Origin: Ureibacillus manganicus DSM 26584
GTDB lineage: Bacteria > Bacillota > Bacilli > Bacillales_A > Planococcaceae
Reading direction: 5' to 3'
Assembly (NCBI RefSeq): GCF_000772945.1
Contig: NZ_JPVN01000006.1
Span: 124,001-188,000 of the forward strand
DNA length: 64,000 bases
Below, one piece after another: positions 39,538 to 60,653 of the stretch. Numbering within the stretch: the stretch's first letter is position 1; every line of letters starts with the position of its first letter. The notes below the pieces were generated by a model. The model worked only from the letters and a program-made list of their open reading frames with translations. It was not told where the DNA came from and searched no databases. A program made the position numbers and the translations under genes.

Positions 39538-39930
39538 CTATAATGACTGTTTTGCTTTTACATCAAATAAGTATTTAAAATAATGCCAGTAGTAATAAAC
39601 CAAATACCCATAAGCAAGACACATAGCAATGGCTAATAGTAAAAGTGACCAATCTAAAAATAAATGAAGCAATAAAATGTTAACGATAATGGCAGCTAAT
39701 GCAACAAGTGTGAATACGACAAAACGATTGGCCAACAATAATATTCCACAAACAACCTCAAGCCCTTTTTCTGCAAATAACAAATATTCAAACTGGAACA
39801 AAGCCATTGCAGCAGGACTAGTTGGTGCAATTGGTTCAAAGCCAAAACCAACAACAAATCCATTAATCCCAGCACCTAAAAATACAAGACCTAGGAACAC
39901 TCTCGCAATATGCATTAAAATTATTTTCAA
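39538..39930 (-). CDS. DoxX-like membrane protein
   Basis: 130 residues from a TTG with GGGAG about 8 bases upstream. Four hydrophobic segments (about 5-25, 48-68, 70-90, 95-118). ARVFLGLVFLGAGINGFV and AEKGLEVVCGILLLANRF match the DoxX/DoxX-like family. Role not known in detail; relatives act in redox-linked membrane complexes. Confidence 0.75.
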   Translation of the reverse strand: MKIILMHIARVFLGLVFLGAGINGFVVGFGFEPIAPTSPAAMALFQFEYLLFAEKGLEVVCGILLLANRFVVFTLVALAAIIVNILLLHLFLDWSLLLLAIAMCLAYGYLVYYYWHYFKYLFDVKAKQSL

Positions 39931-40002
39931 TTGGAAGCTCCCTTAAGAATTTTTATAAGTATATTAATGAGCACGGAAAATTATTTATCATCAGGCAAAT
40001 AT

Positions 40003-40036
40003 AAAAAAGGATCTGAGCTTAGCAGGCTCAGATCAA
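40003..40036 (-). terminator. Terminator of the regulator-pheromone operon
   Basis: On the minus strand GATCTGAGCC pairs with GGCTCAGATC-like GCTCAGATCC, followed by TTTTTTATAT. It lies about 45 bases after the pheromone-precursor stop. Confidence 0.8.
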
Positions 40037-40081
40037 AGTGGCATTTTAACGAAATAAAGTTAAATATAGAAGGTTATTAAA

Positions 40082-40237
40082 TTAGCGATCTAACGTGTAT
40101 CCACCAACACTCATTGGTTTTACGATTGGACCTGGATCGATTTCATAAATTGATGCTTCCGAAGGTGAAGCTGTAAAAATTGCAAAACCAGAAACTAAAG
40201 CAAGTGCTAGAACTAACTTTTTCATTTTTTTAGCCAT
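40082..40237 (-). CDS. Secreted signalling-peptide precursor (Phr/NprX-like), 51 residues
   Basis: ATG at 40237 with a near-perfect AAAGGGAGGTG about 8 bases upstream; the site itself lies in the last codons of the regulator gene and the ATG overlaps its stop (ATGGCTAA). The product has a basic start (MAKKMKK), a hydrophobic core (residues 8-22), a signal-peptidase-like site PSEA-S at 28/29, and a C-terminal part IDPGPIVKPMSVGGYTLDR. This is the architecture of Phr, PapR and NprX pheromone precursors encoded just after their RRNPP receptors. A mature pheromone would be cut from the C-terminal 23 residues. Ser, Thr and no Cys are present, which matters if the linked YcaO acts on it. Confidence 0.85.
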   Translation of the reverse strand: MAKKMKKLVLALALVSGFAIFTASPSEASIYEIDPGPIVKPMSVGGYTLDR

Positions 40238-41501
40238 TGTTCTTTTCACCTCCCTTTAATAGATTTTCATATGCATCAAAGGCATATTTGTAAAGTTCAT
40301 TACTTTTTTTATAAAATTTATTTTTTTCTAAAATAGCACCAAATTCTTTTGAGAAGAAGATGATTATTTCGTATACACGATTTTTAATTACTTGTGGAAA
40401 ATTAGTGTTTAGTATGGTAAATATTTCATCCATATCTTTATATTCAGAAAATAATAAACAGCTTAATAAATTGTTTGAAATAACATATAGTTCTGGTGGG
40501 TTTGCTGACTCCATAACATGATCAGCCTTATTTAAATAAGCTTTTGCTTCTTTAAAATCCCCAATCTTATAATAAGTTCTCGCTAGATTTGATAGTACAT
40601 TATAGTTTTCAGGTGAAATCTCTAAAGCAGATTGATAATACAATATAGCATCATGATATAAATATTGACACTCACTGGAATAGCCTAAATCATTATAAAT
40701 CATTAATTTGTCAGAGTTTGAAGAGTTGTTCAACTGCTCAACAATACTAAGAGCTTGTTTATAATATTTAATTGCTACATCCCATTCATAAACATTGTTA
40801 TAAGCTATTCCTAATAGAACAAGTGCCTTAACCATGTGTTGTAAATGGAAAACGTCGCTATATTCAGCTAATGCTTTTTTAGCATAGTCAATACATTGTT
40901 TGTACAATCGCACTCGTTTAAAGCAAAGGGCAATATGATAATACAAAGTACCATGTTCTTCTTTTGAGCCAAAGTTGAGATTGTGTTCTTGTGTATAATC
41001 TTCAAATACTTGAATTGCTTCTTCATTTTTATTTAAAAAGATAAAACACACAACATAGGCATTGATGAACATGAACTTTTCATAACTATTTAAACTAGAG
41101 AAAATACTGTAGACATCATCCAAGACTTCTTTCGCTTGTGCATACTCTCGAAGTGTTATTAAATATCTAGAATAGATGATCTTGTATTTAATGACTAAGC
41201 CTTGGTTGATCTTACTCTCAAGATTTAAATAGTGAGATAAATCTTTTTTTAACGGAGTTTTCTTTGTTAAGTGTTCATACCAGTCATCTAAATCATTCTC
41301 AATTTCAATTGAATCATAGATAACCTCATCGTAGTCCGCCCCAAGTTTACCAAGAAGCAAACGATAGATTTCTTCGTCTGGTGTTACGTGATTATTTTCA
41401 ATACGACTTAAATAGGAATTGGTACAAATGCCGAGTGCTAACTCTTCTTGACTGATTCCTTTTTCAATTCGTTTGAATTTAATAATATCTCCAATTTTCA
41501 T
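40230..41501 (-). CDS. RRNPP-family HTH-TPR quorum-sensing regulator (NprR-like)
   Basis: 423 residues from the ATG at 41501, with CGGAGG 8 bases upstream; earlier in-frame starts lack a site. The N-terminal helix-turn-helix is IIKFKRIEKGISQEELALGI and SYLSRIENNHVTPDEEI (residues 5-45). From about 100 to the end there are tetratricopeptide repeats, for example LVLLGIAYNNVYEWDVAIKY and SNLARTYYKIGDFKEAKAYL. Length and layout match NprR. Such proteins bind a re-imported oligopeptide in the TPR groove and change DNA binding. The peptide gene overlaps its 3' end, and a YcaO operon is transcribed divergently, the likely target. Confidence 0.9.
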   Translation of the reverse strand: MKIGDIIKFKRIEKGISQEELALGICTNSYLSRIENNHVTPDEEIYRLLLGKLGADYDEVIYDSIEIENDLDDWYEHLTKKTPLKKDLSHYLNLESKINQGLVIKYKIIYSRYLITLREYAQAKEVLDDVYSIFSSLNSYEKFMFINAYVVCFIFLNKNEEAIQVFEDYTQEHNLNFGSKEEHGTLYYHIALCFKRVRLYKQCIDYAKKALAEYSDVFHLQHMVKALVLLGIAYNNVYEWDVAIKYYKQALSIVEQLNNSSNSDKLMIYNDLGYSSECQYLYHDAILYYQSALEISPENYNVLSNLARTYYKIGDFKEAKAYLNKADHVMESANPPELYVISNNLLSCLLFSEYKDMDEIFTILNTNFPQVIKNRVYEIIIFFSKEFGAILEKNKFYKKSNELYKYAFDAYENLLKGGEKNNG

Positions 41502-41675
41502 ACCAAATTCCTCCGAATTAACCTCATTATTACATAAAGTTGGTAGAAGTTGAATGCTATTCAATGTTTTCACAAATACAAATTTTTTTACCACTTTAAC
41601 CTATGTATTTTAGTCAAACTTTCATAAAAAACGAGTAAACTAGTCTCACTTTCCTCAAAGTTGATTATTAACTCC

Positions 41676-41702
41676 ACTTTAAATGGGGGTCCCCAATAAA
41701 GT
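41676..41702. promoter_or_regulatory. Candidate operator of the NprR-like regulator
   Basis: An imperfect 27-base inverted repeat: ACTTTAAATGGGG, one central base, then TCCCCAATAAAGT. It ends 9 bases before the predicted -35 of the YcaO operon, a position typical for an activator. It lies in the 320-base divergent region between regulator and YcaO unit. Binding by the regulator is an inference. Confidence 0.55.
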
Positions 41703-41710
41703 TTGTTCGA

Positions 41711-41738
41711 TTTGAAAATTTCTGAAATATCCTATAAT
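41711..41738 (+). promoter_or_regulatory. Predicted promoter of the YcaO operon
   Basis: TTTGAA at 41711-41716, a 16-base spacer, then TATAAT at 41733-41738. The start codon of the first gene is about 84 bases further on. The -35 is poor, as expected for an activated promoter. Confidence 0.5.
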
Positions 41739-41821
41739 TAATACTAACAGAAAGCAAGATTGATATTAATACTTGCAGAAATATAAAATCAAATGTTCCT
41801 ATATGAAATGGAGGGAAGAGT

Positions 41822-42352
41822 ATGTTTGTAAAACTTAAAGAGAAAAAGATGAATAATGGGAATCTAGTCATTCAATCTAAAATAACTTCATTATTAAAAG
41901 ATCAGCCAAGTAAAAAAGTTGAAGGATTGAATAAGGAAGCAAAAGTTGCTGCTAAATCAAATTGTACTAGATTATCCAAACAATCTATTTCCACTATTAA
42001 CAGCACCTTGAATCGGTTATTTAACCAAGGACTACTCAAAAAGTTCCATTATAAAGAGATAGAGAGTGTTTTAATCATTACGAAAAACCTTTCAGAAGAA
42101 ATTCAACAATGCATTAATTACGAGAAATATGCCTACGACATTCGTGTCATTCATATAGAAGAAATGTCACAAGTAGATTCTAATACAGATATAATCTTTG
42201 CTTTTGACTTCGTTTATGAAACTATTTTTTTCAATGAAATTTCTGAACAAGCTAGAGGTAAGAATGTACCGTTTATTCAATTTGAAATAGCAGATAAGAG
42301 TCTATATATGGGTCCAGTCTATTTTAACGCAAGAGCCAGTGTGATTGTTTGA
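41822..42352 (+). CDS. Small ThiF-like/RRE-like partner of the YcaO enzyme (tentative)
   Basis: 176 residues, ATG with TGGAGGGA about 6 bases upstream. The N-terminal 75 residues are basic and helical with a possible winged-helix segment (LSKQSISTINSTLNRLFNQG). The C-terminal half (VLIITKNLSEEI; TDIIFAFDFVYE; GKNVPFIQFEIADKSLYMGP) resembles the end of the ThiF-like leader-binding proteins that work with YcaO cyclodehydratases, where a G-x-PF and I/M-GP block is common. It is much shorter than those partners (usually over 300 residues) and no CxxC zinc motifs are seen. Directly upstream of the YcaO gene in the same operon. The assignment is tentative. Confidence 0.5.
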   Translation: MFVKLKEKKMNNGNLVIQSKITSLLKDQPSKKVEGLNKEAKVAAKSNCTRLSKQSISTINSTLNRLFNQGLLKKFHYKEIESVLIITKNLSEEIQQCINYEKYAYDIRVIHIEEMSQVDSNTDIIFAFDFVYETIFFNEISEQARGKNVPFIQFEIADKSLYMGPVYFNARASVIV

Positions 42353-42408
42353 TCATAAATTTGTTGCTCGTTTGTGAAGTTTAATACAAAGTAGAAGGGG
42401 TGCTATTA

Positions 42409-43590
42409 ATGTATAAAGGTAATTTAATTCATACTTTAGAGAGTGTTCCTATTAGTGTGATGAATAATCAGTTTCATCGATATATGGCCATAATAAAACA
42501 AAAATATGAACAAAGGATTTTTCCTGGCACAGGTTTTTCAATGGATTATCACGTTGCAAAATCTCATGCAGTGGGGGAAGCAATCGAGCGCTATTGTGCT
42601 GGTATTATGAACCCCTCAGGTATTAAGGAACAATCTGAAAACAACCTGGACTATCCATGTATAACTCCTTTGCAATTCAATCGATATACAAAGGAACAAT
42701 ATGCAAACCATATTAAGGTTGAACAATACGATGAAAAAGAAGCTCGTAATTGGGTTCTTTCCAATAACTATATAACGGGAGAAGAAGTTTATTTACCCAT
42801 AGAAACAGTATATTTGTTAATACCAAATCATTATAAGAAGTTTAGAGATGTTGTATCAACGGGACTAGCATCAGGACCAAGCTTTAATGATGCAATTGAA
42901 AATGCATTAAATGAGTGTATAGAAAATGATGCGTTTATGCTGTTTTGGCTATTAAAGAAAGTGAATTATGAAATTTCATTGGAAAGTATTAATACTTCAA
43001 GAATAAAAAAATTAGTTACTTTAATGGAAGGTCTAAACTATTCCCTTAAAATTTACGATATCTCTCAACCTGATATAAATTCCTTTACCATCTTAACTGT
43101 CATCAAGGCAAAGGATTCAAAAGGATTTTTTATGACAGCTTCTACCAATCGTAATATACGTAAGGCAATAAAAAAGTCAATTGAAGAAGCAATAAGTGGA
43201 TATGTCACTTTACAGGAAAAGAGTGTTTATCAATCGAATACAGATGCGGATATGACAAACGAAGGATCTGTTTATGATTACTTTAATGGATATGACGAGC
43301 AAGTATTAACAGATGTAATCAGTCCAGAAATAGAAGTGAAGAATTTGGAGTCAATTGAGCAAGAATATACGTTTTCGGAGATGGTTTGCTCTGTTGCAAA
43401 ACAAACTGATATTTATTATAAAGATTTAACTACAGAAGATATAAGAGAATTGAACTTAATCTCTTTAAGAGTGGTTACACCGAGTTTTTTAATAGTACCT
43501 TATGAAAAACAAGCACTCTTAGAATCAGAGAGATTACGAAAATTTACAGACGGGGTAGAGTTAAATTTGAAACCACATCCGTTCCCATAA
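42409..43590 (+). CDS. YcaO-domain cyclodehydratase-like enzyme
   Basis: 393 residues from the ATG at 42409 (GAAGGGGTG 6 bases upstream). The ATP-binding motifs of YcaO are present: SHAVGEAIERY (52-62) and NALNECIENDAFMLFW (165-180), then IKKSIEEAISGYVTLQ near 255-269. The protein ends ...LKPHPFP, a C-terminal PxPxP motif known to be important in azoline-forming YcaOs. These enzymes use ATP to convert Cys, Ser or Thr in a peptide to thiazoline or oxazoline rings. There is no dehydrogenase, TfuA, transporter, protease or obvious precursor gene beside it. It is transcribed with the small ThiF-like protein and divergently from the pheromone receptor. Confidence 0.9.
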   Translation: MYKGNLIHTLESVPISVMNNQFHRYMAIIKQKYEQRIFPGTGFSMDYHVAKSHAVGEAIERYCAGIMNPSGIKEQSENNLDYPCITPLQFNRYTKEQYANHIKVEQYDEKEARNWVLSNNYITGEEVYLPIETVYLLIPNHYKKFRDVVSTGLASGPSFNDAIENALNECIENDAFMLFWLLKKVNYEISLESINTSRIKKLVTLMEGLNYSLKIYDISQPDINSFTILTVIKAKDSKGFFMTASTNRNIRKAIKKSIEEAISGYVTLQEKSVYQSNTDADMTNEGSVYDYFNGYDEQVLTDVISPEIEVKNLESIEQEYTFSEMVCSVAKQTDIYYKDLTTEDIRELNLISLRVVTPSFLIVPYEKQALLESERLRKFTDGVELNLKPHPFP

Positions 43591-43628
43591 CATTAGTAAT
43601 AAAACCACTTAAAATAGCTGCAAACAAT

Positions 43629-43666
43629 AAAAGTCGATTCCGTATATAAATGGAATCGACTTTTTA
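43629..43666 (+). terminator. Terminator of the YcaO operon
   Basis: AAAAGTCGATTCC pairs with GGAATCGACTTTTT over a 10-base loop; T-run follows. Confidence 0.9.
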
Positions 43667-43703
43667 GTTTCGTTTTCATTTATAGTCTCAACACCTATAT
43701 TAA

Positions 43704-43919
43704 CTAACTATGGATAATTTTCTTAACACCTCTGTAAACAATATAACCCATCATTAAAATGAATAAAGTAATTAACAACAAGGTCCAAAGGTAGTGGTTC
43801 GTAAAAAGCATACCCAATAGTTCACCTAAGCTTGGAACTTCTAAGGCATCCATTATCGGAAAAATGATAAACATAAATAAGAATACACCTATAATGAAAA
43901 ATATTGAAAAATACTTCAT
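43704..43919 (-). CDS. Small two-helix membrane protein, 71 residues
   Basis: Two membrane segments (about 5-24 and 42-63) separated by a short acidic loop, and a basic end (YRGVKKIIHS). AGGGGGC lies before the ATG. Function unknown; not obviously part of the neighbouring YcaO or ParA units. Confidence 0.6.
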   Translation of the reverse strand: MKYFSIFFIIGVFLFMFIIFPIMDALEVPSLGELLGMLFTNHYLWTLLLITLFILMMGYIVYRGVKKIIHS

Positions 43920-44147: not shown

Positions 44148-45002
44148 TTGGCAATTGTTATTCCGATTATTAATTTAAAGGGTGGCGTAGCAAAGACGAC
44201 GACAAGTGTAGGACTAGCAGAAATGTTGACTTCGGATTTTAAGAAAAAGGTGTTGTTCATTGACCTCGACCCGCAAACGAATGCGACGGTAATGCTAATA
44301 GGGGAGCATAAGTGGAAGGATTTAAATGATCAAGGCTACACAATGGCTCGATTATTTGAAAGTGCACTAAAACCAGAAGAATTTACCTTTGATCTTAAAA
44401 GGACAGTTCAAAAGAATGTTTCGAACATAATTTCATGTGAAAATTTAGATTTAATCCCTTCAAGCCTCAATTTAATTAATATCCAAGATGACTTAACAAG
44501 ACTTCCCCCGGGGAAATTTTATACGAATAATCCATACGATATATTACGGAAAGCAATCCAACCAACTATGAATAACTATGATTATATTATTATTGACTGT
44601 CCACCAAATTTAGGTGTAATTACCCTTAATGGCCTTCGCATTGCAACGGGCTATATTATTCCGACGATTCCTGATGTGCTTTCAACATATGGCATTCCAC
44701 AGATTATTAATCGTGTGAATGATTTTGCAGGGGAAATCGGTTACCCAATAGAAACGCTCGGAATTGTAATTACGAAATATAGAGAAACCTCCAATGTTCA
44801 CCAAACTAATCGAGCAAAACTGGAAAAAGAAATAGATGCCCCTTTGTTTCAATCAGTGTTCAAAGATAATAATCAAATGGCAAGTGCTGCAGACTTCACA
44901 ATGGAATATGGAACGTTCCGACAAAAGTGGGGGTATAGTGGTCAATTTAATGCTTTCTATAACCTTGCAAAGGAAATTGTTGAGAGGTATGAACGAAGAT
45001 GA
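44148..45002 (+). CDS. ParA-family partition ATPase
   Basis: 284 residues from a TTG with AAAGGGGA about 11 bases upstream. The deviant Walker A motif is NLKGGVAKTT (9-18) with the signature Lys11; Ala15 replaces the usual Gly. FIDLDPQTNAT and YIIIDCPPNLGVIT are the other ParA motifs. It has no N-terminal HTH, so it belongs with type Ib plasmid or Soj-type ATPases. It overlaps the next gene by 4 bases (ATGA). There is no ParB-like gene; the downstream small protein may take that part. The gene probably derives from a plasmid or integrative element. Confidence 0.88.
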   Translation: MAIVIPIINLKGGVAKTTTSVGLAEMLTSDFKKKVLFIDLDPQTNATVMLIGEHKWKDLNDQGYTMARLFESALKPEEFTFDLKRTVQKNVSNIISCENLDLIPSSLNLINIQDDLTRLPPGKFYTNNPYDILRKAIQPTMNNYDYIIIDCPPNLGVITLNGLRIATGYIIPTIPDVLSTYGIPQIINRVNDFAGEIGYPIETLGIVITKYRETSNVHQTNRAKLEKEIDAPLFQSVFKDNNQMASAADFTMEYGTFRQKWGYSGQFNAFYNLAKEIVERYERR

Positions 45003-59320: not shown

Positions 59321-60529
59321 TTACTTTACTTCACCTGATTGAAAGTAGAGTCTATGTTTAACAAGATGGATATAAAGATAGATCGCAAGTAATAATCCAA
59401 TAAATGCGAATATGCTTGTGACAGCTTGTACAGAATACCATTCTGCAATGAGTCCAATTACTAATGTAAAAAGGATTTGTAGAATGCCTTGTAATAGGTT
59501 AAGTGAACTGCCGAATCTCCCCATTATTTCAGTGGGGATAGACTTTTGATAAAGTGTCGCATAACCAGTGTTTCCAAATGCCATGAAGAACCCAAGCGCG
59601 ATGAATGAAATGATTGCTATCGATAGGTTTTGTGACATGTAAAAAATAAAGTAGCTTAATAAAGTTAATGAAAAACCAGCACCAATATAGGAAACGAGAG
59701 AAATTTTTTTAACATAGATTGCAGCAGCTGCCCCGCCTAATATTGCTCCTACTCCTGCAACACTTACAACAACTCCGTAGATTGTATCAGAAACAAGAAG
59801 ATGGTCTTTTAAAAAGGTCATTTCTTGAGAATCTAGTGCGTGTGCGATCATTAAAGCGAGAGAATAGACAATGAAAAATGTCTGTAATAAACGATTTTCA
59901 AGAATAAAACGAAGTACATATAAAAAATCTGTCCGCAATATTCCTAATGTGATAACTTGCCTAGCTTTACTTTGGTTTGTTTCAATATTAGGAAGAAAAG
60001 ATAAAGCAAGTGCACAGATGAAAAATGAAAATCCATTAATCCACATAGCAATAGACGTATTACTTAAAGCAATGATGGTACCACCTAAAGCTGGGCCTAT
60101 CATGAAAGAACCCGAACTTAAAATACTATTAATAGCATTGAAGCGTTTACGGTCCTGTTCCTCTACAATTTTTGTAATCATAAAAGTACTACTTGGTCCG
60201 AAAAATGAACTAGCCATATTAGCTAGAAATATTAGTGTATAGATCAACCAAATTGATGAAACAAAGGGCATTATACAAACGATTAATCCTCGAATGACAT
60301 CAGTCAAAATCAGAATTTGCTTTTTGTTAGAGCGATCAATTATGGATCCTGCAAAAAAACTACAAAGAATACGGGCAATTGGTCCAACTATATATATTCC
60401 TGCAACAGCTGCCGGCGAATGGGTTAAATGCCAGACAGCTAAGTTTAATGCAATGAGGTAAATCCAATTGCCGAGATTTGAAACGCCAAAACCAAATAAA
60501 AGTAAAATATAATTTTTAGGATAATTCAT
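59321..60529 (-). CDS. MFS transporter, MefA/YfiS-like drug efflux type
   Basis: 402 residues from the ATG at 60529, 8 bases after TTAGGAG; a start 12 codons earlier would contain that site. Twelve membrane segments. FAGSIIDRSNKKQILILTDV is the loop 2-3 motif of MFS, and GPALGGTIIALSNTSIAMWI matches the MefA-type group. A macrolide or general drug exporter is the usual guess for this group; substrate unknown. Confidence 0.88.
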   Translation of the reverse strand: MNYPKNYILLLFGFGVSNLGNWIYLIALNLAVWHLTHSPAAVAGIYIVGPIARILCSFFAGSIIDRSNKKQILILTDVIRGLIVCIMPFVSSIWLIYTLIFLANMASSFFGPSSTFMITKIVEEQDRKRFNAINSILSSGSFMIGPALGGTIIALSNTSIAMWINGFSFFICALALSFLPNIETNQSKARQVITLGILRTDFLYVLRFILENRLLQTFFIVYSLALMIAHALDSQEMTFLKDHLLVSDTIYGVVVSVAGVGAILGGAAAAIYVKKISLVSYIGAGFSLTLLSYFIFYMSQNLSIAIISFIALGFFMAFGNTGYATLYQKSIPTEIMGRFGSSLNLLQGILQILFTLVIGLIAEWYSVQAVTSIFAFIGLLLAIYLYIHLVKHRLYFQSGEVK

Positions 60530-60653
60530 CGGGTTTCTCCTAACGAATCTGACTTGTGAATTCATCTTTCTAACTATGAATAGTGTTCAAATTATAATAG
60601 ACTGAAAATTATGAAACTGTAAAGCGTTTAGAAGATTAGAAGGAGTGAGACTC

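Follow-up and report, generated by a model that had tools for sequence, protein, structure and literature searches.

Receptors that combine a helix-turn-helix (HTH) domain with tetratricopeptide repeats (TPR), and that are accompanied by a small gene for an exported peptide, are represented in the Bacillus cereus group by the pairs NprR-NprX and PlcR-PapR. In streptococci, the RRNPP-family Rgg/SHP pairs are described as controlling radical SAM enzymes (RaS-RiPP enzymes) of ribosomally synthesized and post-translationally modified peptides (RiPPs), and RRNPP_detector yielded 196 candidate biosynthetic clusters next to RRNPP pairs, most often of RiPPs (PMC10075063). Micrococcin synthesis involves an Ocin-ThiF-like scaffold, TclI, and a YcaO enzyme, TclJ (PMC10634744). 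In the heterocycloanthracin cyclodehydratases, some 100 residues (about) of the C domain are reported to be missing, and a mobilisin precursor missed by an automatic search was then found by hand as a short peptide (PMC4603692); reduced architectures among the thiazole/oxazole-modified microcin (TOMM) systems are thus not new as such. Here we describe a locus of Ureibacillus manganicus DSM 26584 in which an RRNPP-type receptor and its candidate peptide lie divergently from a truncated TOMM C protein and a YcaO enzyme (TOMM D protein). It is located in a stretch of 64,000 nucleotides of contig NZ_JPVN01000006.1 (positions 124,001 to 188,000), referred to below as the window.

The locus shares with NprR-NprX and PlcR-PapR the association of an HTH-TPR receptor with a small exported peptide gene, but its neighbouring genes are different and the family RNPP_C is not among the 25 best Pfam matches of the window receptor (the last at E 0.81). 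As in the Rgg/SHP systems, a RiPP-modifying enzyme would be under RRNPP control, with a YcaO and an NprR-like receptor in place of a radical SAM enzyme and Rgg. The clusters reported with RRNPP_detector likewise lie beside an RRNPP pair, and Ureibacillus is not mentioned in the main text of that study (PMC10075063). TclI and TclJ resemble the window pair in their general composition; however, TclI has a leader-binding RiPP recognition element (RRE), the E1-like domain is fused to the YcaO in TclJ, and both a precursor and a dehydrogenase are present (PMC10634744). No paper treating RRNPP regulation and YcaO together was found in the open-licence literature, and an RRNPP-linked, reduced YcaO pair was not found in print among the open-licence matches listed. 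We tentatively interpret the locus as a reduced TOMM cyclodehydratase pair under pheromone control, which selection has maintained and which probably acts on an unlinked, unrecognised substrate; taken as a whole, we rate this reading at somewhat less than an even chance.

The initial annotation, made from the nucleotide sequence, had proposed a receptor of 423 residues, an overlapping gene for an exported peptide of 51 residues, and a divergent unit of a short ThiF-like protein and a YcaO with a C-terminal PxPxP motif. The receptor, the peptide, the two-gene unit and the YcaO were all recovered. The YcaO matches its Pfam family with an E-value of 2.3e-39 and ends with PHPFP; it also matches TIGR03604 to the end of the model (E 1.8e-50), with 171.9 bits, below the cut-off of 219.25 bits. 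It is the sole YcaO match found in its genome. The receptor displays the domains HTH_3 (E 3.6e-9) and TPR_12 (E 1e-14), and its best natural (not engineered) match in the PDB is NprR (4gpk, E 2.3e-10, from a profile of three rows). According to the definition of RRNPP pairs quoted from PMC10075063, the receptor comprises 250-500 amino acids with HTH and TPR, and the window receptor corresponds to this description. The small propeptide with an export signal that is expected directly beside such a receptor is present as well: its gene overlaps the receptor stop codon by exactly 8 bases, a GGGAGG ribosome site is included in the end of the receptor gene, and the peptide contains a hydrophobic, signal-like core (mean hydropathy of 2.71 over 14 residues). 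Its length is 51, 53 and 49 amino acids in the three species that possess it.

These species are U. manganicus, U. acetophenoni JC23 (YcaO 78% identical to that of the window) and a Ureibacillus metagenome-assembled genome (66%). Gene content and gene order are identical at all three loci, which are flanked in each case by the DoxX-like gene and ParA. Such a recurrence in two further species, with YcaO identities of 65-78%, indicates that the module exceeds chance. The YcaO was found in three of 25 genomes of the genus and the receptor orthologues in the same three, three further genomes showing receptor-like matches with 25-29% identity. In a family sample of 261 genomes from 19 genera, relatives of the YcaO at E <= 1e-50 were detected in eight genomes, the three Ureibacillus included, and a gene-order search of the same sample added one weaker match (G229). 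The receptor was detected at E <= 1e-40 in five genomes, namely the three Ureibacillus and, as distant forms, G185 and G186, which are not among the eight YcaO genomes. YcaO and receptor orthologues therefore have an identical presence pattern (3 of 261). Among 398 genomes of the class, one more YcaO at E <= 1e-60 was found beside that of G000, the genome of the window, in G409. Since the four genes stay together in all three loci and the orthologues of receptor and YcaO share the same three genomes of the family, the independent occurrence of the two pairs, which the initial annotation had named as the outcome that would contradict it, was not seen; the association moreover recurs in other lineages (see below).

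Selection was estimated from pairwise Nei-Gojobori dN/dS values calculated with our own script on the three species. The values are 0.095-0.150 for the YcaO and 0.078-0.125 for the receptor, 0.235-0.334 for the partner protein and 0.23-0.57 for the peptide. The flanking NUDIX, DoxX-like and ParA genes display values of 0.04-0.08 and the gene after ParA a value of 0.17 (one pair). These ratios are rough, because dS approaches saturation; it exceeds 1 for all genes but that of the peptide (0.59-0.77). All reading frames of the module are open in all three species, which, with the low ratios, argues against a dying cluster. The YcaO is kept by selection.

The nearest relatives of the YcaO outside the genus belong to the C-D pairs of fuller TOMM clusters. 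We compared ten loci representing seven lineages: the three Ureibacillus, the plasmid pBpOF4-01 of Alkalihalophilus pseudofirmus OF4, and the genomes G071, G077, G245, G235, G092 and G409. The window YcaO is 27-37% identical to those of OF4, G071, G077, G245, G235 and G092. In OF4, the annotation comprises a 46-aa hypothetical protein (by our reading the precursor), C, D, SagB, an arylamine N-acetyltransferase, a DUF2268 protease and a major facilitator superfamily (MFS) exporter; G071 and G077 have, by reading, the same gene set. G245 and G235 contain precursors, C, D, SagB and further genes, G409 a precursor, C, D, a SagB-like frame and an MFS gene, and the cluster of G092 comprises C and D together with a SagB-type protein and an ABC exporter. 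A leader ending with LLQAG or LIQAG and a Cys/Gly-rich core are common to the precursors of OF4, G071, G077, G245 (two) and G235; in that of G409, QNG precedes the same CCCGGG core. The Ureibacillus pair is homologous to these C-D pairs and has the same PxPxP end. Unlike Ureibacillus, the relatives possess a full-length C protein with Cys pairs, the Arg of the ExxERD motif, exporter genes (by annotation or reading) and, in all but G092, a precursor. Their SagB was identified by search in G071, G245, G235 and G092, by annotation in OF4 and by reading in G077 and G409. In the YcaO tree, the Ureibacillus sequences group with those of the TOMM relatives; resolution is poor there, and the tree gives no branching order within this group.

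The window is not alone in having an RRNPP-type receptor next to a YcaO pair. An HTH-TPR regulator with a candidate exported peptide was observed near the C-D genes in eight of the ten loci (OF4, G071, G077, G245, G092 and the three Ureibacillus), and in five of the seven lineages, Ureibacillus included; the relatives' peptides are candidates by their position and hydrophobic core, and that of OF4 lies on the opposite strand from its receptor. Around the clusters of G235 and G409, no frame of at least 100 amino acids matched any of five receptors at E 1e-4. The receptors of OF4, G071 and G077 are PlcR-like and match RNPP_C, and their homology with the window receptor resides mainly in the HTH. 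Those of G245 and G092 are longer, without an RNPP_C match at E 0.001, and the window receptor is homologous to both (25% identity over nearly the full length and E about 1e-22 with G092; E about 4e-19 with G245). G245, G092 and Ureibacillus have a common layout, in which the receptor and an abutting or overlapping peptide gene are on one strand and the C-D operon is divergent. Of 137 records found, three plasmids with a more distant YcaO, from Anoxybacillus, Lactiplantibacillus and Sutcliffiella, showed no annotated HTH-TPR regulator within about 8 kb on either side, in gene tables that are incomplete; the Anoxybacillus plasmid contains a ComX/kinase pair. The initial annotation knew of no description of a minimal YcaO pair driven by an NprR-like receptor; the coupling itself recurs in fuller TOMM clusters. 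The locus is real and conserved, and it represents a reduced Ureibacillus branch, where the precursor was not found, of the TOMM synthetases linked to RRNPP pairs.

The reduction of this branch concerns several components. No reading frame for a transporter, a protease or a dehydrogenase is present between the DoxX-like and ParA genes, in agreement with the initial annotation (a genome-wide search for proteases and exporters was not made). A profile of six relatives' precursors was searched in eight genomes at E <= 10. Five precursors, all rows of the profile, were recovered in G071, G077, G245 and G235; none was detected in the Ureibacillus genomes G000 and G016 (76% complete) or in G092, and the best match of the third Ureibacillus genome, G001, had an E-value of 8.6. 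Nothing was found below E 55 in the window or below E 71 in the sister-species loci L002 and L003, nor in G092. When each lineage was left out in turn, the profile recovered four of four lineages (E 4e-10 to 8e-4 per 100,000 frames), and the full profile recovered the G409 precursor, which was never a row (E 9.5e-8). In the intergenic stretches of the module, no small reading frame that might be a hidden precursor is common to the three species. The segment 40035-40081, from the peptide stop codon to the terminator (containing TTTCGTTAAAATGCCACTTT), is alike in the three species and also has no common reading frame. SagB-type dehydrogenases are usual but not obligatory in TOMM biosynthesis. 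None was found in the three Ureibacillus genomes by a profile search at E up to 0.001, which detected all four controls (three had given rows; G092 had not, and was found at E 4e-36). A Cys/Ser/Thr-rich precursor, linked or recognisable in the genome, was not found in Ureibacillus, nor was a SagB-type dehydrogenase; a D protein with a PxPxP end is present.

For the partner protein, described as ThiF-like in the initial annotation, searches of Pfam and NCBIfam gave nothing at E up to 1. It is akin to the TOMM C proteins (ThiF/E1-like), as deduced from a profile-profile comparison by hhalign with the C proteins of six relatives (probability 97.9, E 3.9e-13, residues 1-170 on columns 1-173 of 269). 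The shared part ends in all three species at GPxFF, just before GGPCxxC, so that the partner is devoid of both Cys pairs and of about 85 residues. Foldseek gave no match at E <= 0.001; its top rows include MccB and one chain from the McbBCD complex (probability 0.99), together with unrelated methyltransferases and HGPRTs; the model, built from a three-row alignment, has a mean pLDDT (predicted local distance difference test) of 58.7 and is too weak to lean on. The homologous C protein is thus truncated, and its RRE has no confident model. The initial annotation had recognised the reduction, but not how far it goes: neither a precursor nor SagB was detected in the genome, part of the C protein is missing, and the YcaO has a substitution at an otherwise invariant Arg.

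The layout and the region between the two units suggest that the receptor controls the partner-YcaO operon. The element CCACTTTAARTGG is conserved in the three species just upstream of the conserved promoter, whose TATAAT block does not vary. In both sister species this element forms a perfect 6-1-6 palindrome, and in the window it has one mismatch. Residues 1-62 of the receptor are identical at 60 of 62 positions across the three species, as expected if the same operator is read in all of them. The structure model of the receptor from a three-row alignment (mean pLDDT 52.6) is too weak to lean on. An inverted repeat upstream of the -35 box had been singled out in the initial annotation. This GC-rich palindrome, TGGGGGTCCCCA, is indeed present, but it is a feature of the window only, not conserved in the sister species, and we rejected it as the operator. 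More generally, the observations of the initial annotation were partly confirmed and its interpretation is partly supported.

From these data, the following sequence of events may be proposed. After export and trimming, the peptide would be taken up again and bind to the TPR receptor, thereby changing the action of the latter at CCACTTTAARTGG in front of the divergent promoter. The truncated C protein and the YcaO would then be made at high cell density. This pair probably descends from a fuller TOMM synthetase. The linked precursor would have been lost, as would the dehydrogenase, the linked genes for tailoring and export, and that half of the C protein which bears the Cys pairs. Retaining its ATP-dependent activity, the pair would activate backbone amides of a substrate encoded elsewhere and unlike the precursors of the relatives.

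Several observations weigh against this reading. No substrate of the pair was found by the precursor-profile and intergenic searches. A diverged precursor can escape the profile; in G092, with its otherwise fuller cluster, none was recovered. The RRE region of the partner is divergent, weakly aligned and badly modelled. The 13-base operator motif has 20 matches in the genome with at most one mismatch, against 19 for a reversed control. Finally, the Arg of ExxERD, which we take to contribute to the binding of ATP, does not vary among the 11 other YcaOs compared (two of which are near-identical) and is replaced by Asn173 in the window and by Lys in both sister species. Its loss, common to the three species, may impair the ATP-dependent activity. 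Those 11 YcaOs have 19 invariant columns, of which the window keeps 18 and the three species together 17, residue 392 being Tyr instead of the Phe of PHPFP at L003 only; two of the 13 columns kept in 10 of the 11 also differ. The ATP motifs, reported as intact in the initial annotation, are thus not fully so, this Arg being changed.

The main rival explanation, which we consider unlikely, is that of a catalytically weakened or dead YcaO kept for the binding of a peptide or protein (sequestration, immunity or regulation) with no amide activation. The Arg of ExxERD is, among the 19 invariant columns, the only residue changed in all three species (Asn, Lys, Lys), and it is present in MJ1094, MusD, TruD, LynD and McbD, the five of six PDB matches with alignments shown. 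The truncated end of the C protein and the long stem branch of the Ureibacillus YcaOs (1.12 changes per site) agree with such a loss. The motif glutamates and PxPxP are however retained, and the Lys of two species might still meet the phosphate.

It is also rather improbable that the locus is part of an ordinary TOMM system, with a diverged precursor, a protease and an exporter encoded elsewhere in the genome. Exporters and proteases of a general kind might do the work, in G092 the profile likewise finds no precursor for the cluster, and the mobilisin case cited above is a precedent. But neither a precursor match at E up to 10 nor SagB at E up to 0.001 was obtained in G000, although the precursors of relatives left out of the profile were still found by it, and the intergenic stretches of the module contain no conserved small frame.

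We regard as quite improbable that the module is what is left of a TOMM cluster in decay and no longer has a function. The precursor and SagB not being found in the Ureibacillus genomes searched and the truncated, faster-evolving partner (0.24-0.33) would fit this explanation. It is contradicted by the genes, all open in three species with dS mostly above 1, by dN/dS values of 0.08-0.15 for YcaO and receptor in comparison with those of the flanking genes, and by the conserved promoter and operator candidates. Nor do we give much credit to the receptor and peptide being mere neighbours with no control of the YcaO unit. Receptor-like genes adjoin other genes in G185, G186, G008 and G012 (about 1.5 kb on either side), but the same divergent arrangement with homologous receptors occurs in three genera and a near-identical HTH faces the conserved operator candidate. 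That the pair modifies the peptide before its export, the pheromone being the substrate, is very improbable: no small peptide other than this one and the 71-aa membrane protein is encoded by a gene conserved with the pair, and its tail keeps Ser/Thr residues, but there is no Cys in its mature part, it has no evident likeness to the relatives' precursors, separate genes encode the pheromone candidate and the precursor in the relatives, and Sec export would fit badly with a cytosolic modification.

A bolder version, doubtful but worth stating, is that of a density-switched YcaO with no need of a leader-bearing RiPP precursor. The pair would modify or hold a cellular protein or an unrelated peptide once enough cells are present, the leader-reading part having decayed, the Cys-pair part being gone and the ATP site altered. 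YcaO systems are mostly recognised via their precursors; here a conserved, selected pair was detected without one, and its likely inducing signal is encoded next door, which offers a direct handle. The coupling itself is less novel than initially held, and the genuine question is that of a reduced, altered enzyme under selection. The presence of HTH-TPR receptors with candidate exported peptides next to related TOMM synthetases, seen in five lineages, suggests that peptides which can be predicted might induce such silent clusters. The features of the module are collected in Table 1.

Table 1. Features of the Ureibacillus module and of the related precursors. Positions are those of the window unless a locus is named.
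Feature	Position	Strand	Remarks
RRNPP-type receptor/regulator, 423 aa	40230..41501	(-)	N-terminal HTH_3 and TPR repeats; NprR-like size
Exported peptide, 51 aa, candidate pro-pheromone	40082..40237	(-)	ATG at 40237; overlap with receptor gene, ribosome site, hydrophobic core
Partner, 176 aa, truncated TOMM C protein	41822..42352	(+)	Divergent RRE region and first half of E1/ThiF-like domain, without Cys pairs
YcaO (TOMM D protein), 393 aa	42409..43590	(+)	C-terminal PHPFP (PxPxP); Asn173 for Arg of ExxERD
Operator candidate	41674..41686	(.)	CCACTTTAAATGG; sister species CCACTTTAAGTGG, perfect 6-1-6 palindrome; from three-species comparison
GC-rich palindrome	41684..41695	(.)	TGGGGGTCCCCA; element of the initial annotation, not conserved in two sister species
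Promoter candidate of partner-YcaO unit	41712..41738	(+)	TTGAAA 41712-41717, TATAAT 41733-41738
Intrinsic terminator 3' of peptide gene	40002..40034	(-)	Hairpin then U run; fold z -3.36
Intrinsic terminator 3' of YcaO	43629..43668	(+)	End approximate; fold z -5.80
Membrane protein, 71 aa, loosely assigned part	43704..43919	(-)	Convergent with YcaO; travels with module
Flanking DoxX-like gene	39538..39930		Module lies between this gene and ParA-like gene
Flanking ParA-like gene	44148..45002		
TOMM precursor family	L007 4937-5077; L029 9453-9578; L030 9437-9562; L031 8773-8931, 8980-9150; L032 9666-9815; L072 8261-8401		

Both transcription units are closed by terminator hairpins. The G+C content of the module is 0.306 against 0.349 for the window, which suggests an acquisition but proves nothing. 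The 71-aa protein (dN/dS 0.26-0.49) has strong matches (E < 1e-30) only in the same three of the 261 family genomes, and weak ones (E 3e-5 to 9e-3) in 29 more. It has no plasmid match, and a mobile element was not retained on its account. A phage origin was rejected, the region 40000-43700 having no DNA match in phages, as was a defence system, for which PADLOC gave only weak domain matches (the best being HTH_VI, E 5e-7). Further regulon members sought through the 13-base operator were likewise rejected, there being no excess over the reversed control; at the four operator-match loci opened of ten fetched (L008, L010, L013, L016), the motif is inside a reading frame.

The site upstream of ParA may be a variable spot. 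Genome G022 displays an empty site: its DoxX-like gene directly adjoins ParA, and both the YcaO and the 71-aa gene are missing from between them. In G015 (L045 824-1339), the place upstream of ParA that is taken in other genomes by DoxX or the YcaO module holds a glutathione-peroxidase-like gene (by reading), and G011 contains DNA closely similar to that site.

Concerning the related clusters, the precursors listed in Table 1 form a family found beside C, D and SagB, with cores such as CCCGGG and CCTTGGC and a leader end that is mostly LLQAG or LIQAG. The cluster of G092 (L033 6253-11001) has the receptor-peptide/C-D layout of Ureibacillus together with a SagB-type gene and is another cluster with an unrecognised substrate. 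Finally, the receptor-like HTH-TPR genes L020, L021 and L101, of the genomes G008, G012 and G186, adjoin an MFS transporter and possibly represent another receptor-exporter pairing. This transporter resembles, by eye, the gene located at 59321-60565 of the window, which has no receptor beside it.

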